A program made the position numbers and the translations under genes. Below the pieces are notes generated by a model. It ran no database searches. It had not been told where the DNA came from and saw only the letters and a program-made list of their open reading frames with translations. From Bolinopsis microptera (lineage: Eukaryota > Ctenophora > Tentaculata > Lobata > Bolinopsidae), in NCBI RefSeq assembly GCF_026151205.1, contig NC_087075.1, forward strand, positions 4,376,359-4,440,358: a stretch of 64,000 nt of DNA. The letters are read 5' to 3'. Below are positions 15,016-55,475 of this stretch, in pieces; the stretch's first letter is position 1; every line of letters begins with the position of its first letter.

Positions 15016-15150
15016 CAAACAATGTGTGAAAACAGACCTAAGACCCCCACCCGCCACCGTAACATGAAAAGTTTAGATGGATGAAAAACAAGTAGTACAG
15101 TATAAAAGTTCACCCCCTGGCCCCGGTTGCTACTATAGTAACGAACTCAC

Positions 15151-18977: not shown

Positions 18978-19009
18978 TTGTGATATTATGCTGCACTGTG
19001 GAATCAAGT

Positions 19010-19212: not shown

Positions 19213-19247
19213 GAGAATAAAGAATTTCATTGTCATTTGTGATTTAC

Positions 19248-23589: not shown

Positions 23590-23945
23590 CTGAGGGTGGA
23601 CGCGGTTAGGCTCAACTTACCGTTATATCTTTAGAAATGTTTGACAAAGAAACAAACCTAAATTTATGTTCTTTTGAGTTTTTTTATAGCCTGAAATACG
23701 TAACTGGTCTAGGGAATTTGTTTGAATTATTCCAATTTGGTTATACAGATAGAACATAATAACATCAATAATAATGATTAATGACAATAGTTAAAATTGG
23801 TTCATTATTTATATGTTGTAAAAGTATATTATCATTGAAATGTTTCAAGCTTGTGAAAACTTATTTAAAAAATATAATAATAAGCTACCGATATAACATA
23901 CTCGTCGTTTTAGAATGATATACTGATAATTGTTAGATTACGAAT

Positions 23946-24055
<110 letters not shown>

Positions 24056-25233: not shown

Positions 25234-25331
25234 ATGACGTGGTATACCACGTGACATCATACCACGTGACGTCATACCACGTGACGTCATACCACGTGAC
25301 ATCATACCACGTGACGTCATACCACGTGACA
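25234..25331. repeat. 15-bp variant of the CACGTG/TGACGTCA satellite, ~6 copies
   Basis: The unit is ACCACGTGACGTCAT, alternating with ACCACGTGACATCAT. Compared with the 20-bp monomer, five bases (the CATGA spacer region) are missing, so CACGTG and TGACGTCA overlap. It opens with a palindromic ACGTGGTATACCACGT. Confidence 0.9.
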
Positions 25332-26844: not shown

Positions 26845-26890
26845 GGGAGGGAGGGGGGAGGGGGAGCTGGAGGGGTAATATCATAACTTC
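26845..26890. repeat. G-rich tract, copy of the element at 14803
   Basis: GGGAGG repeats lead into GGGGAGCTGGAGGGGTAAT, shared with 14840..14860. Confidence 0.65.
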
Positions 26891-28954
26891 ATAATCAAAC
26901 AAACAAGATCACATAATCAAGAGGCAACTAAAGAACTAAACAGCATACTTCTAATGAAACCCCTACAGATCCATTGCCTCACTCTTCAGTCCCCACCACC
27001 ACTACTACTACTAGTCCCTAATGAGAGTTATAGAAGCCCATTACAGCATTAACCTCCAATGCTCCAGTCCCTAACGAAATCACCACAAGTAACTAAAAAT
27101 ACACGGTGGTCAGAATCACCACAACCAGACAATTGTGGTGAAGAGAATCCTCATTAGGCAACCAATTGCGGTAATTAATGGTAATTAGATGCGGTTAATT
27201 GCGGTGATGACCGTGTTAATTACACTGTAAATAGTTAAAGTGAACGTGAAGAGCCTAGACTATGGATCCTTACATGGTAAATCTCAGATTGTCTGTGTGT
27301 GTGTATGCTTGATGTTCGTTTTGTGGGGAAATTTGCGGGAAGACTTATTCTTGTTTGGAACACACCGTGCAACCACACAGTGTACAACGCCGTGTTTTAT
27401 GAAGGAGTACAATGTCATGATAATTTAATAATGAGATTCTTGGATGTGGGTTGTTTTTTGGAAACTGGACTAACTGGAGACAGTTTGACTGGTTAGCAGG
27501 TTAACTTTAAGTAGGTATTTTAAAAGGTTAAGTTGGTATTTACTGTGAGATTCTGTGGGAATTGTATGGTAATGGACACTGTAGAGTTAGACAAACATTA
27601 CAGTGTCCAGTAGCAATGAACTAAGTGAACATTTCCGAGTTGACGTAGTTGAACCATCCTTGGCATGTAACCTAAAATTTTATCATGATTTCAACCTTAA
27701 CGTGACTCTCAAACTCCGATACAGTATCACAATTGAAAAACCCCATTTATTTTTAGCATTTTTAAAATTCTAGTGAGCTAAGTGAACAATGTTGATCTGC
27801 TTGGTTTGTCCTATATTTACTGCAATAACTATCCATGGTCGACCAAAAATATATCCTGCTCAGTTTAAATTCGCGACAGGTTTAAAACCACATTATAGAC
27901 GATTTTGATATACGATCGCCATCAAATCATTTAAAACAGTCTAGATATTATGTTAGACATTCCTTAACTAAATAAAGTTTTACGTAGACGGAAGGAAGGC
28001 TTCCTGAGTCTCTCACAGGGCAAGGACAGACGGAGGGAGACGGAGGGAGCCAAACTGAGTGTTTAAACTTTTAAAGGCCAAGAAACTAACATTGAATAGA
28101 AATTATATAAAGTTAGTTAGTGGCACACAAATACATTTCATTTTTCTCCACTTAATTAATTTAATCAGATAAGGAAAGGACGGAGAACTACCCACGTTTT
28201 TGCCAGAAAATGTTTCTGGGAACTCCCCGATATCAGATAACCCAAAATAGCTTTATAATATCACGAGCCACGGAGATATTCTAGTATCTGTAATTAGTAC
28301 CCCCCTTTTTATACCCTGATTTTCACAGTACTATTTTAATATACTCAAGAACACTCCCAACATTACTCACATTACTCCCTTATTCTACTTAAATACATTA
28401 AACAGCAGCTGATTTGATTTCAAGTTATTGGAATGGTTCAAGAAATATGCCTCTTGAACTCTAAAGTATGTTGAGGCCCAGATTAAATTCCTGGGAGAAG
28501 GTATGGGCGAGGAAATGTATAAAATATGAACTAATAAAAAGATGGATCACTAAATGACATGCCCGGTTTAACAGGTACGACGTACGTGTAATACATATCA
28601 TATATACATATAATACATGTCATAGTTACTACTTTACGTGTGCCAAAACACATTTCAGGAATTTCAGGATTCAAAGATTTCAAGAATTTCGTGAAGAGAT
28701 TTTAGGAATTTTGTCAAGTAGAAATATTGTAAGATACGCGTTGACAGGATAATTTATTTACTTAAGTTGTTTAAAACTAAAAGCATAATTATACAATGGA
28801 CAACATAAACTTGTCTTGACACGTGACAGTGATCTGTGATTCTGGTTTTTGATTGGTCAATGCTGGAAGCTGATTGGTTAATACCTGTCACGTGTTATAC
28901 AAAATATGTTTCACCTCCTCACCAGTATCCAGATCTATTGAAACTAATGGTATC

Positions 28955-29060
28955 TAATATACTAACTAATAGTTTTATGAAGGAGTAATACTAACACCCA
29001 CATTAACAACTAATAGTTTTATGAAGGAGTTGTACACATTAACAACTAATAGTTTTAAGA
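28955..29060. repeat. Three copies of an AACTAATAGTTTTATGAAGG unit
   Basis: The unit recurs three times with spacers of about 45 and 30 bases; AACTATTAGTT-type symmetry gives each copy weak hairpin potential. The third copy is truncated. Confidence 0.75.
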
Positions 29061-30140
29061 GATAGCCCCATGATGAAGTATATATATGCTTGCTATTTCT
29101 CAGACTTTCTTATACCTAAACACCGAAATACTTATTAAGAGAGGCATACCACCAGACATTTCTAAAATACTTCAGCCAGAACAAATTGTCATGCATATTT
29201 AGCATACTTACTTAACATTATATTTATATTTACTTACATGCCTACGTAACATCATGTTATGTCACTGTACCGTTACGTAGAGGAGATATTCTTGGGAGTG
29301 TATATCATACATTTAGTTGCTTTTATTGGATACTCTCTTTAAATTTAAGAAACAAGTTTCCTAAGTTTTTAAAGTTTTCTGAGTCTATGAAAATTCTATT
29401 GCATTGCGTGGAGGGGACAGAATATGACAAGTTTTGGAAACTTGACGAATACCAAATTTAGCATAATATTGTATACAAACGATGGAATTCGATGTGGAAA
29501 GCAAACAGAAACAGAAGTCATCTTTGGTGGAAGAAGTTGCCATGCATATTTAGCATATTTAGCATATTTAGCATGTACTTACTTTAGCATACTTATTACT
29601 TACATGCCTACTTTACGTTGTACCAGAACAAAGAGAAGATTGTGAGTACCATAAATACTGTGTACATGTTCTGAGACATTTTAAGCATCGAACTTCTTGG
29701 ATGAAGATAATTTTAAACAAAATGGTCAAGGAATTCTACCAGACATCCTGATGGAGATGTACCAGGATAATTACGTATAATATCATACTCAAACTTGCTT
29801 GTGTACTGAGTGTGTTTTATTACACGCTCCACTTCAGCAGCGATATAAAGCGTTTCAGTGTCAAGCACGCTCAGCACATTATATATTAGAAATATGTGGT
29901 AATATGTGGTAATATGTGGTAATAAAGTGGTAATTGTAACACATATTATTTTCAATATGTATCTTCATTAACCCGGTCAATTTACCATGGTCTCGTAGAA
30001 ATATAACAGAGAATGTGAAATATGTTGTTATATTATGACGTGTAAAAGTGTTGTAGACGAGCGAAGGGCAAATAGCGTTAGAAAAAGTGAAATTCGGGAG
30101 GATTCAGTGATAATGTGATGCATTTGCACGTGCAGATACG

Positions 30141-30375
30141 TATCTTACATATCTTACATATCTTACATATCTTACATATCTTACATATCTTACATATCTT
30201 ACATATCTTACATATCTTACATATCTTACATATCTTACATATTATCTTACATATCTTACCTATCTTACATATCTTACATATCTTACATATCTTACATATC
30301 TTACATATCTTACATATCTTACATATCTTACATATATCTTACATATCTTACATATCTTACATATCTTACATATCT
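30141..30375. repeat. (ATCTTACAT)n 9-bp array, ~26 units
   Basis: The array is nearly perfect, with small interruptions near 30240 and 30335. As 9 is a multiple of 3, it yields spurious open frames (Ile-Leu-His on plus; Tyr-Val-Arg and Ile-Cys-Lys on minus). Confidence 0.97.
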
Positions 30376-30514
30376 TGTCACTTCCGACCCTATCCGGATA
30401 CACTCCCAAGCACACACACCATGTAAATATACACGCTATTTCCAAAGTAGCTTTCCGGGGCCTCTCTCTGACTGAGCGTGTAAAACTGTTTGCATGTGCT
30501 CCGTTATCTGCTGG

Positions 30515-30620
30515 AAACTGTCACGTGGGTTGTCACAACAACCAATGAGAGCCCAGGAAACGCGCACGTGACAGGTATCCACCAATAAGGTGGGAGGTTG
30601 AGGCGGGAGAGGTGAAGGTG
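30515..30620. promoter_or_regulatory. Candidate intronic promoter-like cluster: CACGTG plus CCAAT
   Basis: Within about 100 bases are CTGTCACGTGGG, CAACCAATGAGAG, CGCGCACGTGACAGG and CCACCAATAAGG, in locally GC-richer sequence. Paired CACGTGAC and CCAAT sites are typical of promoters regulated by bHLH-zip proteins and NF-Y. It lies in the 25-kb intron; a transcript starting here is not shown. Confidence 0.35.
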
Positions 30621-31224
30621 AGAGTGTGTGTGTTTTACATGTACGAGTATACTTACGATGATGCCGTATGTTTTGCCACGGGTAATCTGCAGCAGAAACA
30701 TCAGGAAGTTGCAAAATGGCAAAATGGCAAAATGGTCTGATCTAGAAATCCGCATTATTCGCCAGTGGTGTTAATTAAGACCGGTGGCTTCTTCTTCATA
30801 GACCAAAGAAAACTCAACAGTCATGAAGTTCTGGATTTGGGACTTCGAACTACTTAGTGCTTTAGTGGTCGGAAGAATCTTGCTGTAAGTTATTACATAT
30901 TACATATACTTGAGTTATAGGCGGGGGGATTATACACTTAGTACCATATTTTCTTCCAAAACACAGTTAGTATTTTTTTGTAGTAAAGTTAGTACCCGGC
31001 GCGGGGGTGGGTGGGTCTTTTTTGTAAATTCCAAAATTACACTTAGTCGACGTCACGTACAGAACTTAGTATCTGATCCCCCACCGTTATAGGGCAGCTG
31101 TGTTAAAGATGTTTTTAACCAGAGTTTAAGTTTCCAAGTTTAAAAAGTGCTAATATTTGAATAGTCGACATGACGTATTGAAAGTTAATGTTACAGTGTA
31201 TTACATTATAATGTTAATTTCGTC

Positions 31225-31425
31225 ATGAGTAGAAAAGACCTTAACCTGGTAACTTGATAACCTGGTAACTTGGTAACTTGGTAACCTGGTAACCTTGTTG
31301 CCTACACAAGAGCAATTCTAACTGAATAACCGCACATCCACATTTTATGCGAACAAACTGATATGAATCCTATCTGTACAAATTGTATGTTGTCTGCATA
31401 CTAACCTTTCTCAAGGCATGAATTT
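31225..31425. repeat. Dispersed repeat copy with GGTAACTTGGTAACCT array
   Basis: After several GGTAACTT/GGTAACCT units comes CACAAGAGCAATTCTAACTG, CACATCCACATTTT, ACAAACTGATATGAATC and TTGTCTGCATA. The same series of blocks occurs at 43095..43245, and its last part at 10480..10545. Confidence 0.85.
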
Positions 31426-31433
31426 CGTTATAA

Positions 31434-31525
31434 TCATGGTTATTAATTATGGTTATTAATTATGGTTATTAATTATGGTTATTAATTATGTCGTTATTAA
31501 TTATGTAGTTATTAATTATGTCGTT
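31434..31525. repeat. (GGTTATTAATTAT)n array
   Basis: About seven units of 13 to 15 bases, the later ones with TCG or TAG insertions. Confidence 0.85.
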
Positions 31526-33127
31526 TATTGCACTTGAATATTCCAGGGTCATTAATATTACAGTTTTATGAGTTATGAAATATTGATCATATTTTAATTC
31601 GCGACTCAACACATCCGGGAATTATAATGATATGTACGGGGAAACTGCATTCACTGGTCCGGTGATCGCTTATTATTATATTAAATGCCATGCTGGTCGA
31701 TAAATATTTGGCTTACTGCCAAACTGGTCCCGATAACAGATTCGTTAGAGTTGTTAGTTTGGTTCGGAGTCCCAACACAGATAGCGATCTTCAACAGTCT
31801 GATCGATGGCATTTTATAATTCCATGAGATGAAACCCCTTTTATCAGCTCGTAAAACGTAATGGGTAGTGTGGCGGTGTTGGATCTAACCGGTCACCATT
31901 CCTCCGTCGTCTCAACGTCTACCTTCCCTTTATCGATAACAATTCAATCGCAACCCGAATAAAATCTGATTAAAAATACACTCAACAGCTGAAGTATATA
32001 TTGTATGGATTGGTTAATTAATAGGCCAGTTTAACAGCTGGTTGCAATCCAAATTAAATAGTAAATTTCACGAGCCTGTCAGGAAACGTTTAGCAGTCTC
32101 GCGAATAAAATAAGAAAATAAATTCCAGTTACCACAGGAATTTAACTAAACAACTAAAAACAACAACGCTTGTAAATAGCGCAGGACGTGGTGATTTAAG
32201 TACTTTGTTAACCAACGGCGGCTCACTTTAACGAGTTAATGAAAACAGCGATAAATAACATGACGATTCATCTCTTAAGGGGAGATAAGAAGTAAATATG
32301 AGAAATATGTCTAACAGTATAACATATTATATAATACGATTCCTTTCCCACCCCTATAATAGGAATTTGAGATAATATATTTCCGGCACATTTCCGGTCA
32401 AATGTTTTTATATCATGTCAAGTTCAGGTTAAAGTGTTAAAAAAGGCAGCCCGGCCCTACATATTGAAACATCATGGCCTAATGACGTGGTTACTTCATT
32501 AGAACCCTTATCTCTGCCGCTTTCTGACAAATGTGACAAAAAAGACAATTTTTTGAAAATGGGGGATCTTTTGCCCAGATTTATTTTTTGACTCAAAAAC
32601 TATCCCTAAAACTATCATTAGAATCAATCCCCCAAAAACCTTCTTTTGGGACCCGCTTAAAAGCCGAAATTGGTCAAAAATGTGCAAGAATTTGCAGGTT
32701 AGGAGCAGATCATGTGCATACATGACTGAAAAATTAATGAAAATAACTTAAAATACGTTTTATTCCGGATGTTCCTGCTGAGGAAATATTATTGGCAGAT
32801 AAGACTTTTGGAGCCGAATCATTGATGGCCGGAGCTTTAGGCAAAATTCCTCGGAATTCCTTGAAAATATCAGCGCTTCTGAACAGGATTTGCAAAATAA
32901 ATTTATGATACCTTAGAATCAGGAATTTAATCTGTGATCAAAATTTTCGATCTTTCGATAGATCCAGAGCCTCTGTCTGAAAGTCAGCTTTTAATAAAAG
33001 TTGGAGGCTTTTGATTGGGCTTCAGAGTTTACTAGATGACTCAAGAGCAGTTTTGCAGCTGTAGTAATATGTACATATTATATATATATATTATTTACAC
33101 TGTACTACATAGACCATAGTGTAAATT

Positions 33128-33238
33128 CTGATATCTGGATATTATCCGGTTGGAAGAGACAAGGACAAGTGAAGGACTCCTAACTTCCTTGTTTCACTTG
33201 TCCTTGTCTCTTCCAACCGGATAATATCCAGATATCAG
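33128..33238. repeat. 46-bp perfect inverted repeat (hairpin)
   Basis: Arms 33128..33173 and 33193..33238 are exact reverse complements over 46 bases, with a 19-base loop. The outer ends read CTGATATCTGG and CCAGATATCAG. Perfect identity means recent origin or gene conversion. I see no target-site duplication or coding capacity. The RNA would form a long perfect duplex. Confidence 0.97.
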
Positions 33239-34327
33239 TATTTCAATCATGAGACTAATAAACAGCGAACTACTCCGTTATTTGATAGTGTAAATTAATC
33301 AAGTAAGGTTGGTCTACAGAATTTGAGGGCGTAATGAATATATTGACAAATTTAAAGTTAGATTTAATTTATACAGTTTGAGTTATGCTATGTTTGAATA
33401 ATATGTTTACCCCGTGAATTAAATAAAGTTATTTTAATCTTCGGCAGCACACAGTGCATCGTAAATGAACCAAACAGATTCTAAGACTGAAATATTCTGG
33501 TAAAAACAGATCGGAGCTTGAATTTCAATGTACGAAGAAATTGAAAATAAACGATCTTTTGGTGTCACATCGTAGACCGTACTATGATCATGTTTTTAAA
33601 ATATTCTAACTTCATATATATTTTTATATAATTTGAAATACAAATAACCTTGTTTTTCTAATTAATTTAACCTTTACCATATGAATTTGTAAACCACCCT
33701 ACTCATTATCGCTTTCTACTGATTACCACACTTACAGACAGGCCAAATAACGAGATTAACAACGTATGGCTTTACGAGATAATATCGTTAAAGTGGTACC
33801 GGATATAACAAGGTATCTGTTGTCACGGTGATTATCACTGTGGTCACAAAACCTCTTTCTGGTTCACACTTAAAATACCCTACATTCTAGTACCAATCTG
33901 AGGAATTTCTCTCCCCTCTCCATGGGTCAATGACTTCACCATCACATTCAAATACCTTTCACCCATTACATTATCTGTATATTCTCATACCTATGTCACT
34001 GGATGAAAATAAATAGCGTTACACTGTTACGTATATAACACAAGCACAGCAAGATGTAGCTATTTTTGCAGACAGGAATTCAGTGGCACAACACTGGAAC
34101 CTGCCAAGCGGGGAGCTGATCGGGACAAATGTAACAAGTTATAATATCGAGTTAGATGAGGGGGGATCTGACAGCTACACCGCATTCCCCACCTTGTTGC
34201 CACTTACAATTAAACTAACTCCCCGCAAACCTCCCCCATTTTATCATGTTTAACATTTTTACTACTTAAATGTTTTATAAAATCTCTATATAATGACCCG
34301 CTGTGATACTAGATATTATATATAATA

Positions 34328-34385
34328 ATGAACGTCTCTCTCTCTCTCCCTCTCTTTCTCTTTCTCGTTCTCTCTCTTTCTCTCT
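34328..34385. repeat. Pyrimidine-rich (TC)n tract
   Basis: Imperfect CTCTCT run about 55 bases long. Confidence 0.85.
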
Positions 34386-35544
34386 GCCGCGCCGGTGTGT
34401 GATCCAGGACTACATACTATACACACTCTTCCTCTGAGAAATCTGATAAATTAATTAAATCCAATATACTGACCCCAATACTGTCCCCCTAATACAGTCC
34501 CCCTAATACTGTCCCCCTCGCCCCAATGAGCCAATGTGATGATGCCTAATCTGTAACTGTATACATTTGTCTATTTGTCCGGACTGAGTTCTATTCATCC
34601 CCTCTAAGTCTAATAGACCACTTAATGAACTGTATTAAATGTCACGTGATACAAATTAACCAATCATGTTACCGGAGCGGTGAGATTATAAAAACTCACT
34701 TTTGAATCTCTTGAATTTTGACAAATCCATGATTTTGGCTATCACTTTTTTCGAGCACGCCTTCCGGAAAATGGACATTTTCGTATATACGAGTATTATT
34801 TTTCTCGCATTTTATCGTGTATTATGATAAGAAAGAGGATATAATAAAATATTAGGATTGGTAACCATGAAGAGATAGCACTACATTAACTCTACTTTTG
34901 ATTGGCCAATATTCAGATATCTTGAATTTAGTTGGCTAGAATTGATTAAATCACTCACTTTTGATTGGTCAGAACTGATCGCCCATCTCGCATCCTATTG
35001 GCTACAATAAATAAGATATCTCGCGTATCATTAGCTTGTATATTTCGCATAATATCTTTGCTAGAATTGCCCAGAAGTCTCTCTTATGATTGATCAGCCC
35101 CGCCCACATTCTAGTAAATACTTACAGTACGATAATAATCTTACAGCTCCTGGCAATATACTAATTACTTAACTCATGATATCAACAATTTCAACAATAT
35201 ATTACCGGAACGGTATCAGAACTCAAAATCAGATTAAAATTCCCAGAAACTTCTCCCAGAAAGTCAGATACAATAAAGGGGCAGCCGATAATAAAGACCG
35301 GGCAATAAAAGCCAAAGGTGCAGCCGATGAATGTGGACATGAAACTAGTAAGAAAAGGAATGCACGTGGCATGACAACACGTGTCAGAATGACAGAGTTG
35401 ATCTGGGGTTTCGCACGTGAGCCGTTCTTCTAAATATTATCAGCTCACTCTAAAAAGGCCAAGGGAGCAATGGTTCTGGAATATTCGGAGATACTGACGC
35501 TTGATGAGTGGACCGTATTTATCTTATCTTTATCTTGTTAATCT

Positions 35545-35586
35545 GCTGAAAGTCTACATTACGAAGGCGTAATGTAGACTTTCAGC
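35545..35586. repeat. Perfect 19-bp inverted repeat with 4-base loop
   Basis: GCTGAAAGTCTACATTACG at 35545..35563 faces its reverse complement at 35568..35586 across AAGG. A short direct repeat (TTTTCAGGTCCAC) follows immediately. Confidence 0.95.
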
Positions 35587-35867
35587 TTTTCAGGTCCACT
35601 TTCACTTTTCAGGTCCACCAAAACATTTCACGCCGTAGAGTCAGGACCCTCAGAATAATTCATGCTAAATCTACCTCATTAGCCGATAATGAAGCATGCT
35701 CATATTGGACTATATTTGGGCTTCTTCCCGACGATGAAGATTGTTTCATCGGTTGATATGAACTATTTTGTCGGACTGCAGTTGACTGTCTTGTTATATT
35801 TGAATTAGGCCAGACGATCAGCAATGTAATCTTCAGTTCGGCTAATTTCACTGCAGTTACACGCTCT

Positions 35868-36309
35868 ACACTGAGTACACACTCTGGGATTATAGTGTCA
35901 GGAGCAACAGGAGCAATACACTGAGTACACACTCAGGAGCAATACACTGAGTACACACTCGGGGATTATAGTGTCAGGAGCAACAGGAGCAATACACTGA
36001 GTACTACACACTCGGGGATTATAGTGTCAGGAGCAACAGGAGCAATACACTGAGTACAACACACTTGGGGATTATAGTGTCAGGAGCAACAGGAGCAATA
36101 CACTGAGTACTACACACTCGGGGATTATAGTGTCAGGAGCAACAGGAGCAATACACTGAGTACACACTCGGGGATTATAGTGTCAGGAGCAACAGGAGCA
36201 ATACACTGAGTACTACACACTCGGGGATTATAGTGTCAGGAGCAACAGGAGCAATACACTGAGTACACACTCGGGGATTATAGTGTCAGGAGCAACAGGA
36301 GTAATACAC
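35868..36309. repeat. ~50-60-bp tandem array, about 8 copies
   Basis: Each unit contains GGAGCAATACACTGAGTAC, ACACTCGGGGATTATAGTG and TCAGGAGCAACA. Units differ by a TAC trinucleotide insertion after GAGTAC and by one truncated copy near 35930. Confidence 0.93.
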
Positions 36310-37735
36310 TACACGGTTGAGAAGTTTACACTAAACATATAGGTTACAGTAAACTTGTAGTAAATATTATAGTGGTTTATTCTAATAGAGAGAATTTCAA
36401 ATATTCTGATCTTCTGATGTAGAGAAGTTGACAATTTATTGGAGCTATTTTCGCATTTTCGTAGGAAAAATTTTTTCGTAGGAAAAATTTGACTGATTAC
36501 TAATTATATCTGTAATCTGACTTGATCCCTGATCATTTAGTGTAATACTAATAATGAGGTCCAGGCTTAATCTCGGATAATACCCCCGGATACTCCCATA
36601 ATCTTTAGTTTCCTCATAACAAATCAACCTAGATACTAACAGTGATCTCCAACCAGTTACAAATCAACCAGTTACCATCAACCCTTACAATGTCGCCCAA
36701 TCAGCGCGTCTGTCCACCAATTATCACGGAAAAACATCCTTCTCATCACCCAACAGCGGCAGCAATTGAGCACTTATCACTTAATTAATTGGGTAATTAG
36801 GTAATTGGCCGATAATTACAGGTGTAGAGTGACAAGATGAGGTGATCAAATTAAAGGGGTGCATGTTGGAGTGAGGAGTGTTGTTAATCTGTAATGGTTT
36901 AAGACTGTCATAACAACGTATTGTTCAGGTCATAAGGGATTATTGATCTCTTAAATTATCACTAGATTTTTATATGGGAGACTGAATGTATTAGACAATA
37001 GACAAGATATAATTATAATAATGTCAGTAATTTCTGCATTAAAATTTTTAATGGGCATTGTTAGACGTTTCACTTAGATACCAACCCAAAAATACAGTTA
37101 CCGCCCAACTTTTGTAATTTACTACTCCGACCGCAATAAGCCACCAAGGCCCGCAACCGCTCTTTTCGTCGCATATTTTGTATCATAGCGTGACCGAAAG
37201 TTTAATTCAGCATTAACATTTTTGACGGGCTTTAGAGGGTTCAACAGTAATCAAATTGCCATGGCTATCCAATAGATTATAACCTGAAAATACATTAATA
37301 ACCCAACAATTTGTAGTTTAAAACTCTAACAATTTTATTGTTTTATTTATTTTTGTTGTCTGGCCTATTAGTGAGCGTTTAGGAAACCTGACTTCTGTCA
37401 ACATTCATTTAATTTTATGGTGTTCGTGGGAAATAGGGCATTCTGGGGGTGTTTGTAAGTACTGGTCTTTTAGTTTCTGTAATTGTAAAGAATTAAGTTA
37501 AAGAATGGTCTGGGAGAAAAGTAAGGTTTTTTTTTTACATATTTGATAGATTTACAGATCTGGCTTGACAAAAATTTTCAGAAAAAATCATGTTCGCGGG
37601 AAGCAAAAATCCGATGAGTTTTTTAGGGGGGAGGGGTAGGGGGTTGAGGGGGGTTGGAAAGGGTTGTCACATGACGAGAAATTTTTTGCAAAAATTAAAC
37701 AATCTTTATTTGTTGATATTATTCACCCCTGTTGC
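36310..37735. other. Unique AT-rich intron sequence
   Basis: No repeat array or coding motif is seen apart from a short AAAAATTTTTTCGTAGG duplication near 36455..36485 and a G-rich patch at 37624..37665. Confidence 0.6.
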
Positions 37736-40682
37736 CTAGAGTGGTGGGTCTGCACTTGAGAAGAGTGGGTCTGGCCGCTAGAATGGTGGGTCTGCAATCT
37801 AGAAGTGGGTCTGCAATCTAGAAGTGGGTCTGGCAACCAGAATGGTGGGTCTACAATCTAGAAGTGGGTCTGGGAACCAGAATGATGGGTCTGTACCCTT
37901 AAAGAGTGGTCTGACAACCAGAGTGGTGGGTGTGCACTTGAGAATAGTGGGTCTGGCAGCTAGAATGGTGGGTATGCAATCTAGAAGTGGGTCTGTTAAC
38001 CAGAATTGTGGGTCTACACCCTTGAAGAGTGGGTCTGACAACCAGAATGGTGGGTCTGCACTTGAGAAGAGTGGTTCTTGCGGCTGGAATGGTGGGTCTG
38101 CAATCTAGAAGTTGGTCTAGCAACAGAATTGTGGATCTGCATTCGAGAATAATGAGTCTTCACTCTAGAAGAGTGGGTCCGGCAACCAGAGTGGTGGGTC
38201 TGCACTTGAGAAGCGTGGGTCTGGCCGCTAAATGGTGAGTCTGCACCCTTTAAGAGTGGGTCTGACAACCAGAGTGGTGGGTCTGGACTTGAGAAGAGTG
38301 GGTCTGGCAGCTGGAATGGTGGGTCTGCAATCTAGAAGTTGGTCTTGCAACCAGAATGGTGGGTGTACGTACACCCTTGAAGAGTGGGTCTGACAACCCG
38401 AGTGGTGGGTCTGGACTTAAGAAGAGTGGGTCTGGCAGCTGGAATGGTGGGTCTGCAATCTAGAAGTGGGTCCGGCAACCAGAATGGTGGGTGTACGTAC
38501 ACCCTTGAAGAGTGGGTCTGACAACCAGAGTGGTGGGTCTGCACCCTTGAAGAGTGGGTCTGACAACCAGGGTGGTGGGTCTACACTTGAGAAGAGTTGG
38601 TCTGGCAGCTATAATGGTGGGTCTGCGATCTAAAAGTGGGTCTTGCAACCAGAATGGTGGGTTTGCATTCTTGAAGAGTGGGTCTGACAACCAGTGTGGT
38701 GGGTCTGCACTTGAGGAGAGTGGGTCTGGCAGCTAGAATGGTGGGTCTGCAATCTAGAAGTGGGTCTGGCAGTTAGAATGGTGGGTCTGCAATCTAGACG
38801 TGGGTCTGGCAACATGAATGGTGGGTCTGCACCCTTCAGGCTTAAAGAGTGGGTCTGACAACCAGAGTGGTAGATCTGCACTTGAGAAGTGTGGGTCTGG
38901 CAGCTGGAATGGTGGGTCTGCAATCTAGAAGTTGGTCTGACAACCAGAGTGGTGGGTCTGCACTTGAGAAGAGTGGGTCTGGCAGCTAGAATGTTAGGTC
39001 TGCAATCTATAAGTGGGTCTGGCAACCAGAACGGTGGGTCTGCAGTCTGCACCCTTAAAGAGTGGGTCTGACAACCAGAGTGGTAGATCTGCACTTGAGA
39101 AGAGTGGGTCTGGCAGCTGGAATGGTGGGTCTGCAATCTAGAAGTTGGTCTGGCAACCAGAATGGTGGGTGTACGTACACCCTTGAAGAGTGGGTCTGAC
39201 AACCCGAGTGGTGGGTCTGGACTTGAGAAGAGTGGGTCTGGCAGCTGGAATGGTGGGTCTGCAATCTAGAAGTTGGTCTGGCAACCAGAATGGTGGGTGT
39301 ACGTACACCCTTGAAGAGTGGGTCTGACAACCAGAGTGGTAGATCTGCACTTGAGAAGAGTGGGTCTGGCAGCTGGAACGGTGGGTCTGCAATCTAGAAG
39401 TTGGTCTGGCAACCAGAATGGTGGGTGTACGTACACCCTTGAAGAGTGAGTCTGACAACCCGAGTGGTGGGTCTACACTTGAGAAGAGTTGGTCTGGCGG
39501 CTAGAATGGTAGGTCTGCGATCTAAAAGTGGGTCTTGCAGCCAGAATGGTGGATCTGCACTTGAGAAGAGTGAGTCTGTCAGCTGGAATGGTGGGTCTGC
39601 AATCTATAAGTGAGTCTGGCAGCTAGAATAGTGGGTCTGAAATCTAGAAGTGGGTTTTGCAACATGAATGTGGGTCTGCACCCTTGAAGAGTGGGTCTGG
39701 CAATCAGAATGTTACGTCTACACTCTAGAAGAGTGGGTCTGGCAACCAGAATGGTGGATTTTCGTCCTAGAAGGGTGAGTCTGGAAACCAGAAAGGTGGG
39801 TCTACAATCTGGAATAGTGGGTCTGGCTACCAGAATTGTGGGTTTGGACAACTAGAATAATAGGTCTGGTGGGTCTACACTTTAGAAGAGTGGGTCTGCC
39901 GGTCTGGCAACTAGATTGGTGTGTCTGCAATCTATAAGAGTGGGTCTGGCAACCAGAATAGTGGGTCTGCAATCAAGGGAATCAAGATGAGTGAGTCTGG
40001 CAATCAGAATGGTGGGTCTGCACCTTAGGGTAGTGGGTCTGGAAACAAGAATGGTGGGTCAGAATTCTTGAATAGTGGGTCTTCACTCTAGCTAAGAGTG
40101 GGTCTGGCAACAAGAATGGAGGGTAAGAATTCTAGAATAGTGGGTCTTCACTCTAGAAGAGTGGGTCTGGCAACCAGAATGGTAAGTCTACACTCTGTCA
40201 AGTGTCAACCAGAATTGGGGGTCTAAACTAGAATATAGGATATATGGCAACCAGAATTGTGCGTCTGGAGTCTAGAGTCTAGAATAGTGGGTCCGGCAAC
40301 CCGAAAGGTGGGTCTTCACTCAAGAATAGTGGGTCTGGCAATCGGAATGGTGCGTCTACACTCTAGAAGAGTGGGGCTGGCAACCAGAATGGTAGGTCTT
40401 CGCCTTAGAAGAGTGGATCTGGCAACCAGAATGGTGGGTCTGCATTTTAGAATAGTGGGTCTTGACTCTATACCTACTAGAAGAGTGGGTCTCCTCTCTA
40501 GAAGAGTGAATCTGGCAACCAGAATGGTAATTCTTCACTCTGTCAACCAGAATTGGGGGTCTATGAACTAGAATATAGGAGATATGACAACCAGAATTGT
40601 GGGTCTGGACTCTAGAATAGTGGGTCTGGCAACCAAAATGTTGAGTCTGCACTCTAATAGAGTGGGTCTGGCAACTAGAATG
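37736..40682. repeat. 3-kb hierarchical minisatellite, GTGGGTCTG-based
   Basis: The basic subunit is about 18-21 bases, GTGGGTCTG followed by a variable tail: CAATCTAGAA, GCAACCAGAATG, CACTTGAGAAGA or GCAGCTGGAATG. Four subunit types alternate to form higher-order units of roughly 80 and 140 bases; one larger block containing GTACGTACACCCTTGAAGAG recurs nearly unchanged between 38350 and 39450. The right third (39600 on) is more diverged. Long minus-strand frames rich in THHSGCQTHSS arise from it and are not taken as genes. Confidence 0.95.
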
Positions 40683-40684
40683 CA

Positions 40685-42050
40685 GACACGTAGCCAAGGG
40701 GAAGACCCCCGGAAAAAAATTGAACCCCAAAAAAAATAAGCCCCCTAGTCCCCATGGTCGCCTGGTAAGTGGGCTGTGTTTATGACTGTTTGATTAAACG
40801 ACACGACAGGCAATCGACTTTAGCATTTCGTAAATTATTCCCAAATCCCACTATACAATATGTACTTATTCCATTCAATGTGACAAGTACTGAGTTCCCC
40901 CTAGCCCCCAACTTTGTATTATTGTGATGTCTGAAATTACAAATTTCTAATGCCAAATGTCGTCTGAAACACCCTATTTCTCAAAAATTTTCCGGGGGCT
41001 GCACCCCCAACTTTGTATTATCGCCGTCCTACAAATTTCTTTAATGCCTAATGTCGTCTAAAACAAATAATTTCTAAAATTTTTCTTGGGGGCTGCGGGC
41101 CACCAACTTTGTATTATTGTAATGTCTGATTATTGCTGTCCCACAAATGTCGTCTGGAACACCCTATTTCTCAAAATTTTTCCAGGGGCCAGGGCTGCGC
41201 CCCCCCCCCCCCCAGCCCACCAACCTTGTATTATTGTGATGTCTGATTATAATTACTGTCCTTCAAATTTCTTTAATGCCAAATGTCGTCTAAAACACAT
41301 AATTTCTCAAAAATTTTCTGATTGGCTGCGCCCCCCCCTCCCTAGCCAACCAACTTTATATTATTGTGATGTCTGATTATTACTGCCCTACTAATTTCTT
41401 TAATGCCTAATGTCGTCTCAATCACCCTATTTCTCAAAAATTTTCCGGGGGGGTGCGCCCCCCTAGCCTCTTAACTTAGTATTATTGTGATGTCTGATTA
41501 TTACTGTCCTACAAATTTCTTTAATGCCAAATGTTGTCTAAAACACATTATTTCTCAAAAATTTTCTGGGGGGCTGCGCCCCCCCGGCCCCCCAACTTTA
41601 TATTATTGTGATGTCTGATTATTAATGTCCAACAAATGTCGTCTGGAACACCCTATTTCTCAAAAAGTTTCCGAAGGCCAGGGCTGCGCCCCCCCCCCCC
41701 CCCCCCCCAGCCCACCAACCTTGTATTATTGTAATGTCTGATTACTGCTGTCCCACAAATGTCGTCTGGAACACCCTATTTCTCAAAAATTTTCCGAAGG
41801 CCAGGGCTGCGCCCCCCCCCCCCCAGCCCACCAACCTTGTATTATTGTAATGTCTGATTATTGCTGTCCCACAAATGTCGTCTGGAACACCCTATTTCTC
41901 AAAAATTTTCCGAAGGCCAGGGCTGCGCCCCCCCCCCCCCCCCCCCCAGCCCACCAACTTTGTATTATTGTAATGTCTGATTATTGCTGTCCCACAAATG
42001 TCGTCTGGAACACCCTATTTCTCAAAAAGTTTCCGAAGGCCAGGGCTGCG

Positions 42051-42083
<33 letters not shown>

Positions 42084-42717
42084 AGCCCACCAACCTTGTA
42101 TTATTGTAATGTCTGATTATAATTACTGTCCTTCAAATTTCTTTAATGCCAAATGTCGTCTAAAACACATAATTTCTCAAAAATTTTCTGATTGGCTGCC
42201 CCCCCTCCCTAGCCAACCAACTTTATATTATTGTGATGTCTGATTATTACTGCCCTACTAATTTCTTTAATGCCTAATGTCGTCTTAATCACCCTATTTC
42301 TCAAAAATTTTCCGGGGGGTGCGCCCCCCTAGCCTCTTAACTTAGTATTATTGTGATGTTTGATTATTACTGTCCCCAAATTTCTTTAATGCCAAATGCC
42401 GTTTTAATCACCCTATTTCTCGGGGGTTGCGCCCCCCAGCCCACCAACCTTGTATTATTGTAATGTCTGATTATTGCTGTCCTACAAATGTCGTCTGGAA
42501 CACCCTATTTCTCAAAAATTTTCCAAAGGCCAGGGCTGCGCCCCCCTAGCCCCCCAACTTTGTATCATTGTGATGTCTGATTATTACTGTCCTACAAATT
42601 TCTTTAACGCCAAATGTCGTCTTAAACACATAATTTCTCAAAAATTTTCTGGGGGGCTGCGCCTTCTTCCCCTACCCTCCCTAGCCAACCAAAGGAGCTT
42701 CGCCCCGGCTACGTGTC
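40685..42717. repeat. 2-kb tandem array flanked by 11-bp inverted ends
   Basis: Roughly 14 units of about 95-125 bases. Each has TTGTATTATTGTGATGTCTG, ATTACTGTCC, an optional TTTCTTTAATGCC segment, ATGTCGTCT, CTATTTCTCAAAAATTTTCC and GGGGGCTGCGCCCCC with a C run of 5 to ~31 bases. The ends are GACACGTAGCC (40685..40695) and GGCTACGTGTC (42707..42717), exact reverse complements. This suggests a non-autonomous mobile element whose interior expanded, but no transposase or clear target duplication is seen. Confidence 0.8.
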
Positions 42718-43094
42718 GTGTCGGGCTACGTGCCCAGAATCGAAAAAACTTAATCTTTAAATGAATAACGGAACCTTTATTATGGAGTTACGAGATGATA
42801 ATATAATTGGGAGGCAAAGTGGGTATCGGGCTTGGGGCTCATAATGCGCAAAATTTGGCCGCTGTCGAGTGGGTCTGCCTAAAATTCACAGATCTAGCTA
42901 TGGGTCTGAGACATTTGTAAAAAAAAAACCTTAGAGAAAAGGTCGGAGTTGTTTACTTTCAGTCTCAGATAATTGACACGTGACAGACGTCCTGTGTTTT
43001 ACTTTTCAATATTGGAATCTGATGGGCCTACATCCAGAAAAACAGCAGATATTTTTATCAAATTTCGATAATAATTTTGATCATGTGTGCATGG

Positions 43095-43245
43095 GTAGAA
43101 AAAACCTTAAAACCTGGCAACCTTGTTTGCCTGCACAAGAGCAATTCTAACTGCACATCCACATTTTTGTGAACAAACTGATATGAATCTTATCTCCACG
43201 AAATTGATGTTGTCTGCACAGTGCACACTTAACTTTTTATAGATG
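43095..43245. repeat. Dispersed repeat copy
   Basis: Shares CACAAGAGCAATTCTAACTG, CACATCCACATTTT and ACAAACTGATATGAATC in the same order as 31225..31425, without the GGTAACTT expansion. Confidence 0.85.
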
Positions 43246-43249
43246 AAAT

Positions 43250-46200
43250 TTTGATTTAATTTAGATAAGTAAGATTATTTAATACGTTCTGACTGCTGGT
43301 AACTTGAAAATATGAGAGCGATAACACGGCTTAATTTAACACAGAAAAGTGTATTACTTTCTTACATTTTTATTAACTTAAGCCTACTACGATTACATAT
43401 CATAATGTTATTCGAATATTCAATATCATGAAATTTATATTGCTATGTGCTGGAATGCGGTATATTGTTTAATGTATTAACATTTCTAATTCAAATCAAA
43501 TTTCGGGATGATCGGTATTTCCATTTCAAAATAAAGTACACCGGTCACGATATACCTGGGAAATAACAAACAAGGAATTAAAGATAATATCACATAAGTT
43601 TACACACAGTGTGTGATACATAATTTAGTGTGCTATATAACTTAATTACGGCTCATTAATTTAATCATATTAAAAGGGACACATAAAGCTCTAACAAAAC
43701 TCTCTCACATTAATGAAACCTATCCATGATTTACCACCCTATCTATTTGATGTTCATATTATGCTCTTAGCAGGGATCTGCAACTACCGTACTCATACAC
43801 CGGTGTTCAGTCAACCAGATCCCTCTATTCGCCCACGTGACCCTTTATTCGCCCACGTGACATGTTATCAACCAATCTAACCTCCCTATTCGCCCACGTA
43901 CTATTCATCGAGGGGAAATATACTTTAAACTGATCACGTGACACTACAATTATTGTAAATAAGATATTTAACACGTAAACTAAAACATATCTTTAACTTG
44001 CTGTGACCCAGATTCTCGTTTTCTTTTACCGAAGGAAATATCAGAAAGGTTGCAAAAATACCGTACAAACAAACCCCCGATTGATGGTGATACATGGAAA
44101 AAAGTATGGGCAGTTGACTGGAACTTTAATTAAATCATGAATCACAGTGCAGTAGATGATACTTCAACGATTAATAATGTAAAGTTAATATTGAACTGAG
44201 CTGCACTGCGGTTTTTTAATCACGTTGTTGGTTTGTCATGGTGAGCACTTAAACTTGACTTATATTAAATTTTCCAACTTATATTAAATTATCGGACTCC
44301 CGGAATTTTATTAAGGAAATTATTGGAGCACAACCATACGGTGTTAAGTTGGGGATTTAACGGTAATGATGGATATATTTTGTCAGTATTTTAGCTTTGT
44401 TAGAAAAAATTATGACGTAATGGTATTTAATATTAATATCTAAATAACTTAATTTAATGATAATATCATTATTCAACCCATACCAGGATGGACCATGTAA
44501 TATCATACATTGTGCCGCCTGGTTCGAATCATGTTTACATAGTCGTTAGAAAAGTTTAGCTGACAAAATTGAGTTCTAAAATTTTACATCTATGATACAG
44601 GAAATAGTTAAGTCCGAGGATTCAATTGAGTAGGAACTATAATAATTTGTTTGACCCGTGACAGTGGTTAATCTCTGTAACTTTAAGATTGTCTTCCTAC
44701 CAGTATATTTATAATGACGAAGTACGAAATGTTAGAATTTATTTATTTATTAATTATAGTATCCCGATCTGTTGTTTATTTAATTAAGGAGGATTAACGT
44801 CTTAATCATACCTTCCTGGACTCCGAAGAGTCAATATTGAATGAGGTGCATCATCTTATCGTCACAGGGCACAATTTTAATTTTCAGGCGAAAAGTTTTC
44901 CAGTGTGCTCCTCAAAATACACAGCAAAGAAATTGGAGAAGATTCAAAGAGAGAAAGAGAATACTTCATACGGTTCTCTGGAATTGGAAAATGGGATATA
45001 AAATAGATTAGCACTCGATAGGAGTCTTCACCAAACCACTGTATTAATCTCAATACATGTGTCTGTGAAGTGAGCATAGAGCGCGTAATCCCCTCCCCCT
45101 CTCCCAGTAACACTTTTCAGAGATAAGGAATCTTTTGCCACTTTGCAGCAATGGTGCAGTTGTAAATCATAGATCTAGCTGTTTCAATGAGCTCCGTGAT
45201 CTATGTTTCAGCACAAAGCGTTATAATTGGAGTCCCACCCCCATGATGCTTCTATTATGTTATCTATCTGCGGAACAATAGCTACGACGCTCGCACCTCA
45301 CCACACCCTCAAGTGCATCTCAGACAAAAGACAATCAATCAGGCAACATCGCACTATATCAGAGTATCAGATTTAAAATAGAGTAAGTTCTAATACCACC
45401 CACCACAACAAGTAGCATTAGTCAGTTTGTATTGAGATATTCAGCCAACGCAACTAATTACAGTTCTGAACACTACAAGTGACCGGGATATTAGTTATCT
45501 AGTGTTGGCCAGGTTCATATCTTAACGGAGATTACTTTGCGTACTTAGCTTGCTGATATTGATTCAGATAATTTACAGATCCCCTCTTGAACATGTTGGT
45601 TATATTCGAGCTTTTCGTCTAGAAGTGAAACAGATTCTTCAGGGTGTGGACTGGATAAGCCTGGTTGAAAAGTTTCCATCCCATAACACAATTATTCTTA
45701 ATAAATGTATTTAATTGTAGTTGTGATAATACATTTTAAAGTTCCAAATAATAATTCTTAATAACGACTGTTTTACAAGACGTACAAACTATTGCCCACA
45801 ATGAATATTTAGAATAATTTTGGGCTATTTTGTGGAATTTTGGGGTATTATGTGGGACTCTATTATGATTTATGTGGGATTTCCAAAATCCATTAAGGCA
45901 TTTCCCAAAATACCCCAAAATACCCCTTGGCTTTCCCCCCTACATAGTGCGCGTCATTACGAGGCATTTCGACACACTATCAATATTTTAGTAGTAATTA
46001 CTTAGAGTGGAGCATTGATTTCAAAATTTGAAGATGTTACAGAAATGTCACAATGTTTGTATGTTTCCCCTTTTGGCATGTACCACATGAACGAAATTAT
46101 AAAGAGAACCTGAAGGACTTAATGGTCATGGAAAATTATGTACTTTTAATTGGCTTACCCTCTAAAATCGAATTTAACGAAATTTGAAACTATTATCCTT

Positions 46201-48100
46201 TTAATGACCACAGTTTACACTTGCTCACAGTATCCATGTTTTAGGATACTTTTCTAGAATTTATATGTCAACTAAAATTAGTAACATTTATCATTCTTAT
46301 TGCATCATTATCACAATGTCATGAGCCGAGGGCCGTATCAGGACAACAGTAAGCTTTGTAAAGGAGCAGTAAGCTTTGTAAAGGAGCAGTAAGCTTTGTA
46401 AAGGAATGTGCACGTACTAATCACATTCCTGTAAAAGCTGGCTCAGGACTCTGGCGACTCCCAGTTTCAGTAGAGTTTGTGCTCCTTACTTCCTTACAGT
46501 TTCACAGCTCACATAGCAGTTAGAGCATGCACCTCCACCCTCCACAGTCAAGTGACACGCCTAACAACAAATCACGTGAACTTCCGGACACTATTTCCAC
46601 TTTTCCCAGCCCTGGACCCTTGTTGACACGTCACACCACCGAGCTGGGTATTCATTAATCCGGGCCAGGTAACAGCGAGATAGATGTGTCAGCAGTAATA
46701 AACCTGCCTCACACTGTGTCACTGCTCACTGCTAATTGTAGTTACTTACTACTTACTGCTAACTATCGTCTCGTATCTTCTGTAAACTCTTTATAAGTTA
46801 ACGTCTATAATCCTTATACTCCAGTTTCACAATCAGAAATAAACTGAGATGTTGACACAGGATCATGGAGTGAGGTTGATATATCAGCTACATAATATTC
46901 TCCTGACGGCATACTACATACCGTATAACATACCGTATAACATACTACATACCGTATAACATAATATCCCCGCATATCGCGTCCAAGTGTCACAATGCTC
47001 TTAACTGAAGTAGGGAGTGGCTAAATTGTCCAGGAACACCCCCGGAGGTTACCGTAACAAAGGAACAAGGCGTGGCTCGCTACATAGGCACCCCAAATTA
47101 AACTCCTGCTTTCCTTACCACTGTTTCCTTAGCACGGAATTGATTTTGGAGCGCTGGCAAATGTCAAAGGAATTTTATAATCGGTATTACAACATTACGT
47201 AGCAATATCACCGTTACTCAACCCAACAGTCACGGTTATAGTATGTGTGGTATTTACTGGGAGTCGGGAGCCTAATTTTTAAAATAAGTAACTTTTTATA
47301 ATTATTGATGGACGTGATCAATACCAAGCTATGCACTGAGGTAGTAGAGTCTGGACGATGGCTGATAACTGTAAGTTATTGCAACATAATTCTGCTACGA
47401 GGTATTAGTATTATCAACTACGGTATTATTTTATCAATTGCTAGATACTGCAGCTCTAGATAATGGACGGTTTGCAATGATCGATCATGCAGTTTGGAGG
47501 ACAATTGATGATGTTATTTCTATCTCGTATGCTAGTTTTGTCCCAGAGTCTTTTTGTTATCTGCAACTGCAGAAAAGCACAATGATTGCTGGTAAGCGTG
47601 GCTGGCTGCCAGTTATATACAATATTAAATGTTCCGTAAAAACAATTTATTTCCACCTTTTGATAATATTTTGATTCCATTAAGTCTGAACTGATTTAAA
47701 GTGCATAATTTTATTATTTCAACACTTAGTCTCGCTTGAATGACTTAAGAATATGTTTTTTATGGCGAAGCGTGTAATAAATGTTAGAATTTACCTATTT
47801 ATTTATTCATATCATATAATACACTAGAAACCCGCTAGTCGAAAGCTTTGTTCGAGGAAATTTAAAAAATCATTTATGTTTAAATTTGTCTAATCTCTGA
47901 TCATCTAGCTCTAAGCTCTGTACTGTAGAAAGTATGGATTTTATTTGACAATGACGACACAGTTGTATGTATTCAGATTCTCTAAACGATACTTTCTACC
48001 GCATTGAAAAATATCAATCACAACCAAAATTATAAATAGTGATATCGTGAGCATAAATGTGAGCTAGTTATGACGTATCAAATACAGTATAAAATATCAG
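43250..48100. other. Remaining left-over intron sequence
   Basis: Mostly unique AT-rich DNA. Small repeats are GCCCACGTGACC-type units near 43830..43900, three AGTAAGCTTTGTAAAGGAGC units (46349..46405) and CATACCGTATAA units (46905..46965). Open frames (for example 47438..47674) show no motifs. Confidence 0.6.
46349..46405. repeat. Three copies of AGTAAGCTTTGTAAAGGAGC
   Basis: Perfect 20-bp tandem units except for the end of the third. Confidence 0.92.
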
Positions 48101-48185
48101 TATAAAGCATGGCAACGCGCGTTGCTAATCTGTTCTTTCTCGCGCACGTGCAATCTCTTGATGTTGCTAAGTAACGACGCAGTGA
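48100..48185. promoter_or_regulatory. X-box and CACGTG cluster in the large intron
   Basis: GTTGCTAAGTAAC at 48163..48175 matches the RFX X-box pattern. GCAACGCGCGTTGC at 48112..48125 is a perfect palindrome, and GCGCACGTGCAAT lies between them. The same GCACGTGCAAT string occurs beside the X-box at 11753. It lies about 370 bases downstream of the transmembrane exon. Confidence 0.4.
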
Positions 48186-48470
48186 ACCTTTGCTAAAATA
48201 AAGCCATTATTCTAACGTTAATTTTACCTCACTTTCGACGTTAATTATAAAAAATCTAAAGTCTTAATCAAAATTCTAAGAATGCTATATTCTATTCCTA
48301 TCCTTTTTAACAACCCAGCTGAAAATTGCGAGGTTCCAACTCCATTTGCGACAACAAATTTGATACAACTTAACCAGGATCTACATGTAAAACGTACGCT
48401 GTGGATACAGAACAACTGACAGACAAACCAAGACAAAAACAGAGCGAGTCAAACAACAGAATGTCTGAAA

Positions 48471-48576
48471 AACACACCAGGAATAACTTACTTGCGATTA
48501 CAGAAGACAGCGATAGCAATGATAACACACCAGGAATAACTTACTTGCGATTACAGAAGACAGCGATAGCAATGAT
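48471..48576. repeat. 53-bp tandem duplication across the transmembrane-exon splice donor
   Basis: Bases 48471..48523 and 48524..48576 are essentially identical. Each copy holds the last ~32 coding bases of the transmembrane exon and the GTAAGTTATTCC donor. The exon copy in frame with the rest of the protein is the one at 48524 and above. Confidence 0.97.
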
Positions 48577-48740
48577 AACGATGAGGAATACAAGCCCCAC
48601 CAAACATGCAATGATGATGAGGTACATGTTCATGAAGGGACCATCTGATTGGGTCGTCACATAGAACACCTCAGAGACACTCTCAACGGAGCCGTTACAT
48701 ACTTTGAAGGAGATAATGTAGTCTTCATCTGGATCTAGAT
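48545..48740 (-). CDS. Eph: Eph receptor exon: end of fibronectin III domain and transmembrane helix
   Basis: After two bases completing an Asp codon, 64 codons run from LDPDEDYIISFKVCNGSVES and VSEVFYVTTQ through NMYLIIIACLVGLVFLIVII to AIAVFCNR. The first part has the L-x-P-x-x-x-Y-x-x-x-V pattern of the F strand and the closing T of a fibronectin III domain; the second is a 25-residue hydrophobic helix with a GLVF core like that of Eph receptors. A split Lys joins it to the basic juxtamembrane exon. Acceptor ACTTCTCAG|AT; donor CGCAA|GTAAGT. The donor is duplicated 53 bases downstream; reading past the first donor meets TAA at once. Confidence 0.93.
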
Positions 48741-51356: not shown

Positions 51357-51545
51357 CTGCAATCGAGACCTGGTTAATCTCCATCTCAATCTCCCGTTCT
51401 ATATCATAAACATTGCCCGTAGTTTTATCCTTCCTAGATATCCGGATCTGATATCTAAGTTCGGGAGCGATCTCCGGAACTTGGTAGATAAGAGAGGTCG
51501 GGCTATTGGTCAGCAGGACGATCCCACTTGGTGGGTCCGGGGGTT
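51357..51545 (-). CDS. Eph: Eph receptor exon: membrane-proximal fibronectin III domain
   Basis: Two bases complete a codon, then 62 codons begin PPDPPSGIVLLTNSPTSLIY and pass through QVPEIAPELRYQIRISRKD to REIEMEINQVSIA, with one base of an Asp codon. The start PPDPPSGI and the Y-x-I-x-x-x alternation are typical of fibronectin III A to E strands; the domain finishes in the next exon. In Eph receptors this second fibronectin domain lies against the membrane. The usual Trp of strand B is absent (SLIYQVP). Acceptor CCCTCAG|AAC, donor TTGCAG|GTAAAA. Confidence 0.9.
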
Positions 51546-54253: not shown

Positions 54254-54412
54254 CAATACAAGCTTCATCCAAGTTGGAAGCGTTAGCTCTCTGATAGTCT
54301 CTCTGACACTCACACTTATAGGTGAAGCCAGGCATGGAGAAGGAGTTAGGGGGACACTTTTGACACGTGTCAATGTTTCCAGGACTTTTCTTGTAGTACC
54401 CTGACTCGCACT
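54254..54412 (-). CDS. Eph: Eph receptor exon: second half of Cys-rich (EGF-like) region
   Basis: Two bases complete a Glu codon, then 52 codons begin CESGYYKKSPGNIDTCQKCP and pass through PNSFSMPGFTYKCECQRDYQ to NLDEACI. The spacing C-x(n)-GYYK-x(n)-C-x-x-CP-x-x-S-x-S-x-x-G-x-x-x-C-x-C-x-x-x-Y-x-R matches the tyrosine-kinase-receptor Cys-rich repeat of Eph receptors (GTFKA..C..CP..S....G...C.C..GY.RA). Acceptor CTTCCAG|AGT, donor ATTG|GTGAGT. The phase with the upstream exon is exact. Confidence 0.93.
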
Positions 54413-55346
54413 CTGGAAGACAGAGATAAGGAATTGGTTATTTGAAAATCAAGTTTTTAAAGGTGGCGGTGGGTTTGTACTTTGTAGGTGCTTTGTGAGA
54501 GGGGATTTTATGATAAAGATTGATTTTAGACTGAGATTTTGTGTGTAATCGGGTAAAAACTAACAAAGGGCTAATTTGTTACTTTGATAGACGAGCAATT
54601 CATTTGTAAAAATTTTTAGGTTTTAAATATTTAACTTAATCAAGATAACAAAATTATGCATATTGAAAATTACTTTACATTTGAAAAATAATCTCATACC
54701 AGTCTTTGAGAATTGTAAGTCATATAATTGAGGATGATTTAACTTAGGTTACAATATAATATAATACCATTTTGTACACTCTGGACGGTCTTAGCACTGT
54801 AACTTGGAAAGGTAGACATTTTATGATAATGTCATTATAAAATGAGGACATAATTATTATCTTGTCCTTAGTTATCAACGGATTGCAGAATATCTTAATC
54901 ATATCCTAATCGACCACAGCCATTGCATCGTTTTGTTACTAAACATTACAAACTTCTTTGAAATTCTCCGTAAACACCGCAATCCAACCTTTCTAATCTC
55001 ATCATACAATCTAACTAAAAATTACCGACATTAACTCTATTTAGGGAGGTCATTTTTACTGCATGATGTTTCATAGAACTACTATTAATTATTCGTGGCA
55101 TTCCAATTAGGAACAAAAATGTATATTTTTGGCGGCAAACCAAAAAATGAAGCCAAAATAACCGGACCCAACGACATCATAATTCATATTCGATTTGCGG
55201 AGTTGAAGTCATCACGTTTATATCTAAAACTATTATCAATATAATATAATATTGATTTCTTCAAAACTAATTACTATCTCCAAATTCCAGATGGTAAACA
55301 TCTATCCCATCCGTACGTGATGGTATAACTAGATCTAAGTACATAC
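54413..55346 (-). other. Intron in the Cys-rich region
   Basis: This 934-base AT-rich intron holds no array or coding motif that I can see. Confidence 0.8.
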
Positions 55347-55475
55347 CTTCGCAAACGTTGTTGCTCAGCCAAAAGCCTCGGTCGCAGTAACAACCAGACT
55401 TCTGGAAGCTGTCGTACCAGTATCCTGGTACTGCGTTACTATCAGCTGATGTCTTGCAGAGTGTTATAGGGGGTC
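55347..55475 (-). CDS. Eph: Eph receptor exon: first half of Cys-rich region
   Basis: After two bases of a split codon, 42 codons begin PPITLCKTSADSNAVPGYWY and pass through DSFQKSGCYCDRGFWLSNNV to CE. It corresponds to the part of Eph receptors where a Cys is followed by a W/Y-rich strand and then the NCLCxxGF motif (here GCYCDRGF), just before the C-x-A/E-C junction. Acceptor CCTCCAG|GAC, donor GCGAAG|GTATGT; the end phase makes Glu with the next exon. The upstream partner exon is less certain. Confidence 0.88.

Follow-up and report, generated by a model that had tools for sequence, protein, structure and literature searches.

A perfect tandem duplication of the transmembrane-exon splice donor in an Eph receptor gene of Bolinopsis microptera

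An Eph receptor gene on the minus strand

The window (the whole stretch of DNA analysed, 64,000 nt of the B. microptera contig NC_087075.1) carries on its minus strand the ligand-binding, Cys-rich, kinase and SAM pieces of one gene, in that order, from about 72.9 kb (outside the window) to about 4.1 kb. These were located by tblastn, using a human EPHA4 protein as query against the window and its flanks. A partial model of 14 exons runs from 71224 to 6773 (minus strand); the SAM exons and the earliest ligand-binding exons are not part of it. All 14 exons are preceded by AG and followed by GT, and the translation is free of stops when the upstream of two donors at the transmembrane exon (48545) is used. 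In 4-kb steps, the GC content of the window ranges from 34.6 to 45.3%. The features of the gene are:

54254..55475, minus strand: two Cys-rich exons, span including the intron (EPHA4 match, exon model)
51357..51545, minus strand: exon preceding the transmembrane exon, phase 1 at either end, recognised by eye as FN3-like, without a Pfam match (exon model)
48545..48740, minus strand: transmembrane exon in its upstream-donor form, 196 nt, encoding the end of the FN3-like unit, the helix and CNRK (exon model, EphA2_TM match)
23590..48544, minus strand: phase-2 intron after the upstream donor, 24,955 nt (exon model)
23436..23589, minus strand: juxtamembrane exon, KKERKRR...RRTYVPITKYADPQ (exon model, Pfam)
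6773..21312, minus strand: seven kinase exons, K1-K7, span including introns (exon model, Pfam, PDB comparison)
4060..4551, minus strand: SAM domain exons, approximate span (Pfam, EPHA4 match)

Judged by its predicted domains, the host gene of the duplicated donor is a genuine Eph receptor. The kinase of the spliced model is matched by PF07714 (E = 5.3e-84), with HRDLAARN and DFG both present, and the SAM domain by PF00536 (33.7 bits, E = 4.8e-8, cut-off 23). The ligand-binding domain is matched by PF01404 (51.4 bits, E = 1.8e-13, cut-off 27). It was joined from two pieces, the first of which holds the best-matching stretch; their phases differ, so an exon is probably missing between them. The match to EphA2_TM (PF14575, 32.2 bits, E = 1.8e-7, cut-off 28.9) straddles the join of transmembrane and juxtamembrane exons made by the upstream donor, which supports this as the original junction. 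These four Pfam matches bear out the Eph identity proposed in an earlier, sequence-only reading of the window. The Cys-rich region shows 42% identity to the EPHA4 query (tblastn, E = 0.001) and scores 16.9 bits against PF25599 (Ephrin_CRD), under the cut-off of 27. FN3 domains gave no Pfam match in the translated window or the spliced model, and one unit was recognised by eye. Bilaterian Ephs have two FN3 domains; between the Cys-rich region and the helix (54254-48740), the partial model holds one FN3-like unit by eye, and a missed phase 1-1 exon is a possible reason for the shortfall.

Comparison with solved structures (PDB) matched 953 sequences, and the best 60 of the 953 include 43 Eph receptors and 16 Abl or Src/Abl chains. 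The top match is an EGFR chain, with a score that sums two kinase domains (181.6 + 182.4 bits), while EphA3 reaches 300.0 bits from one. A search of the whole assembly (264,652,675 bases, 232 contigs) for Ephrin_lbd gave one match (40.9 bits, 8.7 kb outside the window), whose reported frame contains one TGA. The Eph ligand-binding exon was thus detected once, and it belongs to the gene with the duplicated donor; a second, divergent Eph gene could be missed by such a search. The kinase exons match 19 other places at 32-58% identity (21 rows, two of them the Eph gene itself), as expected of other tyrosine kinases.

Several repeats occur within and around the gene. A minisatellite (48745-49344), whose best stretch has a period of 32, immediately precedes the transmembrane exon acceptor on the minus strand. 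CCCCAG-like acceptors occur in its units, and it is crossed by long open frames in all three minus-strand frames. Arrays of 15-20-bp units at 9053-9376, 19008-19209, 23309-23411 and 25244-25332 contain many TGACGTCA-like motifs (CRE type) and CACGTG motifs (E-box type), and one such array directly adjoins the juxtamembrane exon. Large tandem arrays, with unit sizes that include about 42, 121 and 128 bp, occupy about 5 kb (37736-42761) of the 24,955-nt intron. The same intron holds, near the duplicated donor, a dispersed repeat (48240-48352) with at least 39 further matches at 90-92% identity. The 39 other rows of a 501-base search with the locus were ruled out as second copies of it, as they represent this dispersed repeat only.

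The duplicated donor and its two reading frames

The end of the transmembrane exon and the start of the following intron form a perfect tandem repeat (48471-48579, minus strand), in which both copies carry the donor CAA/GTAAGT (the slash marks the splice site). The relevant features are:

48524..48576, minus strand: first 53-bp copy, with the upstream donor, last exonic base 48545, GT at 48544-48543 (self-comparison and exon model)
48471..48523, minus strand: second 53-bp copy, with the downstream donor, last exonic base 48492, GT at 48491-48490 (self-comparison and exon model)
48541..48543, minus strand: in-frame TAA, reached if the upstream donor is unused (translation)

By self-comparison, 48471-48526 and 48524-48579 are identical at all 56 bases, at an offset of 53 (2.06 copies). 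An exact match of this length is beyond chance. Control offsets of 50, 51, 52 and 54 near the duplication gave longest runs of 4, 4, 7 and 5. Each 53-bp unit consists of the last 32 exon bases and 21 intron bases. The match exceeds the period by three bases, so that the breakpoints of the duplication have three bases in common, which would fit microhomology or slippage repair. The sequence-only reading had described a 53-bp tandem copy of the exon end together with its GTAAGT donor, and had placed the last exonic bases at 48545 and 48492; the exact repeat confirms the former and the positions of the two GTs the latter.

With the upstream donor, the transmembrane exon (48740-48545) joins the juxtamembrane exon (23589-23436) in phase 2, giving ...AVFCNRKKKERKRRFGNF... 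in an open model, as had been proposed. With the downstream donor, the exon lengthens from 196 to 249 nt and its frame ends ...AVFCNRK-stop; as had also been read, translation past the first donor adds one Lys and then stops (AAG TAA, within GTAAGT). An in-frame stop after the helix, reached by alternative splice choice, is therefore present at the sequence level, and the predicted downstream-donor product would keep the ectodomain and helix and lack the kinase, in agreement with the earlier claim. The argument that an insert of 53 bp makes a switch by not being divisible by three does not hold. The TAA comes into frame through the phase-2 position of an intron that begins GTAA. This stop belongs to the intron itself and would be met whatever the size of the insert, so the length of 53 bp is irrelevant. 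The length argument was rejected also in view of intron retention, which would yield the identical truncated protein without any duplication.

Two further outcomes were considered. An 80-nt mini-intron from the upstream donor to TTTTTCAG, just beyond the repeat, has been possible only since the duplication and would lead to an early stop (KHSVV-stop), but its use is unlikely. The 24,955-nt intron contains 28 AATAAA motifs as candidate signals for intronic polyadenylation, the first of them 600 nt in, a count that is not distinctive in AT-rich DNA.

Tandem pairs in the genome and the origin of the duplication

Small two-copy duplications are not exceptional in the genome as sampled. Isolated two-copy tandem pairs (period 30-150, at least 88% identity) numbered 22 in 313,900 bases, made up of the window, five flanks and a 20-locus sample; 114,000 of these bases are Eph gene neighbourhood (100 overlap bases counted twice), and several of the 22 pairs sit within larger minisatellites. 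At least three perfect pairs are present, two from the filter and one 74-bp pair that it missed (L030:1459-1623). The three perfect units total 193 bases, or 0.06% of the sample. If a genome is assumed to hold 100,000 donors, then some tens would be expected to fall within such units without selection. The Eph gene has a second perfect pair in one of its introns (L011:931-1066, approximately window positions 64872-65007), with a 66-bp unit and 70/70 matches. Two of the three perfect pairs thus fall inside this one gene, a clustering that may reflect chance or a local assembly problem. A literature search with narrow terms, which prove little, found no earlier reports of duplicated splice donors.

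The explanation preferred, with moderate confidence, is that of a young tandem duplication that is near-neutral, with the upstream donor mainly used and the downstream-donor mRNA mostly degraded. The 53 bp would probably have been duplicated in this ctenophore Eph gene by microhomology-mediated or slippage repair. The spliceosome would then meet two identical donors and mainly use the upstream one, giving an unchanged full-length Eph, so that the duplication would be near-neutral. Whenever the downstream donor was chosen, the mRNA would carry the stop just past the helix and would mostly be degraded, although a small amount of kinase-less membrane Eph might arise.

It is also conceivable, though unlikely, that the second copy arose when the consensus was built, gaps were closed or haplotypes were merged, and that the animal itself lacks it. 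The published B. microptera genome came from a single adult out of a captive F3 population and was assembled by wtdbg, followed by gap closing, haplotig purging and polishing (PMC10232365), steps that could leave short duplications. The concentration of perfect isolated pairs in the Eph gene is consistent with such an error, and the exon occurs once in the assembly, so haplotypes cannot be compared: no unduplicated haplotype was found among the best 40 of 395 candidates scored in the 501-base DNA search, where the duplicated exon appeared once. Against an artefact, the identities of the sampled pairs spread continuously from 0.889 to 1.000, with no pile-up at 1, as ongoing turnover of tandem pairs would give, and another perfect pair exists elsewhere, at L030.

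Donor choice, mRNA fate and comparison with known systems

The upstream donor was judged likelier to be used than the downstream one. The two copies are identical, so the splice sites themselves cannot decide between them. In a designed human library derived from 81 native contexts in which tandem donors are spaced 2-77 nt apart, pairs of equal strength mostly favoured the first donor (PMC6783452). By another rule, competition between two comparable donors favours the intron-proximal one (PMC6002489, citing Roca 2013), in which case the truncated form would dominate; SRSF1 can likewise move the choice in DOK7 towards an intron-proximal donor (PMC5585400). These preference rules all come from human cells. 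The predicted accessibility of the donor 9-mer was higher for the upstream donor in all three window sizes (0.0551 against 0.00241, 0.00983 against 0.00151 and 0.00676 against 0.00205), a weak hint that points to the upstream donor. By calculated U1 pairing, CAA/GTAAGT is the weakest of the 16 donors scored in the gene (-5.1 kcal/mol), so that leaky recognition would be possible, whereas by consensus count (8/9, joint highest) it is among the two best of the 16; the two measures disagree, and donor strength therefore permits no conclusion.

If the downstream donor is used, its stop precedes nine modelled junctions, its own junction being 49 nt away and the next eight modelled exon ends 203, 273, 407, 521, 620, 731, 881 and 1051 nt away. 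In mammals, a stop upstream of such exon junctions makes an mRNA a target of nonsense-mediated decay. Matches to the UPF1 and UPF3 genes were found in the assembly and, together with the nine junctions, make decay the default forecast for this mRNA. A function for the downstream donor is possible, but the default forecast speaks against it.

More doubtful than an assembly artefact is a damaging allele, in which the downstream donor wins, most of the mRNA decays and Eph function is reduced, the allele surviving as heterozygous or mild. The intron-proximal preference (PMC6002489) and the early stop ahead of nine modelled junctions would both produce this outcome, but the dominance of the first donor at equal strength (PMC6783452) argues against it, and with one Eph ligand-binding exon detected, a strong loss should be costly.

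Least probable is a regulated isoform switch, in which some cells deliberately use the downstream donor to make a kinase-less membrane decoy. The reading frames fit, EphA7-T1 is a regulated, dominant-negative vertebrate analogue (PMC7717530), and kinase-less Eph architectures are described in cnidarians, sponges and ctenophores, although the same paper notes that many gene models of basal groups are partial (PMC6485061). Set against these are the predicted decay of the mRNA, the identity of the copies, which shows no divergence pointing to separate regulation, and intron retention, which yields the same protein without the duplication. Of the decoy suggested in the sequence-only reading, the resemblance to the vertebrate form stands as an analogy; a stable decoy is disfavoured by the nine junctions and the presence of UPF1 and UPF3. 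There is only a slim chance that a very recent duplication acts as a switchable donor, giving receptor and decoy from the only Eph gene detected; a kinase-less Eph would then have originated independently, and been caught at birth, in a very early-splitting animal lineage. If the second donor is used, it would offer a clean natural test of competition between identical tandem donors, and a kinase-less Eph form would have arisen anew through one small duplication.

Alternatively spliced kinase-less forms are known for many Ephs (PMC6993872). EphA7-T1 has the identical ectodomain and helix plus 11 unique residues (PMC7717530); the predicted downstream-donor product likewise retains the ectodomain and helix, and loses kinase and SAM. 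EphA7-T1 is an observed, developmentally regulated transcript, whereas the form described here is a prediction from sequence; in the latter, the unspliced tail would contribute one Lys, and the exon junctions further downstream would remain in the mRNA. The arrangement shares with human tandem 5′ splice sites the presence of two donors on one exon, and its 53-nt spacing is within the 2-77 nt range (PMC6783452); it differs from those contexts in that 56 bases around both sites are identical, as in a recent duplication. Krishnan et al. (PMC6485061) surveyed 11 species and recorded 9 ctenophore Ephs, 3 of them full-length. The present gene shares with these the ligand-binding, putative Cys-rich, transmembrane, kinase and SAM regions in the usual order, and differs in having one FN3-like unit in its partial model and a duplicated donor, a feature that the available parts of that survey do not mention.
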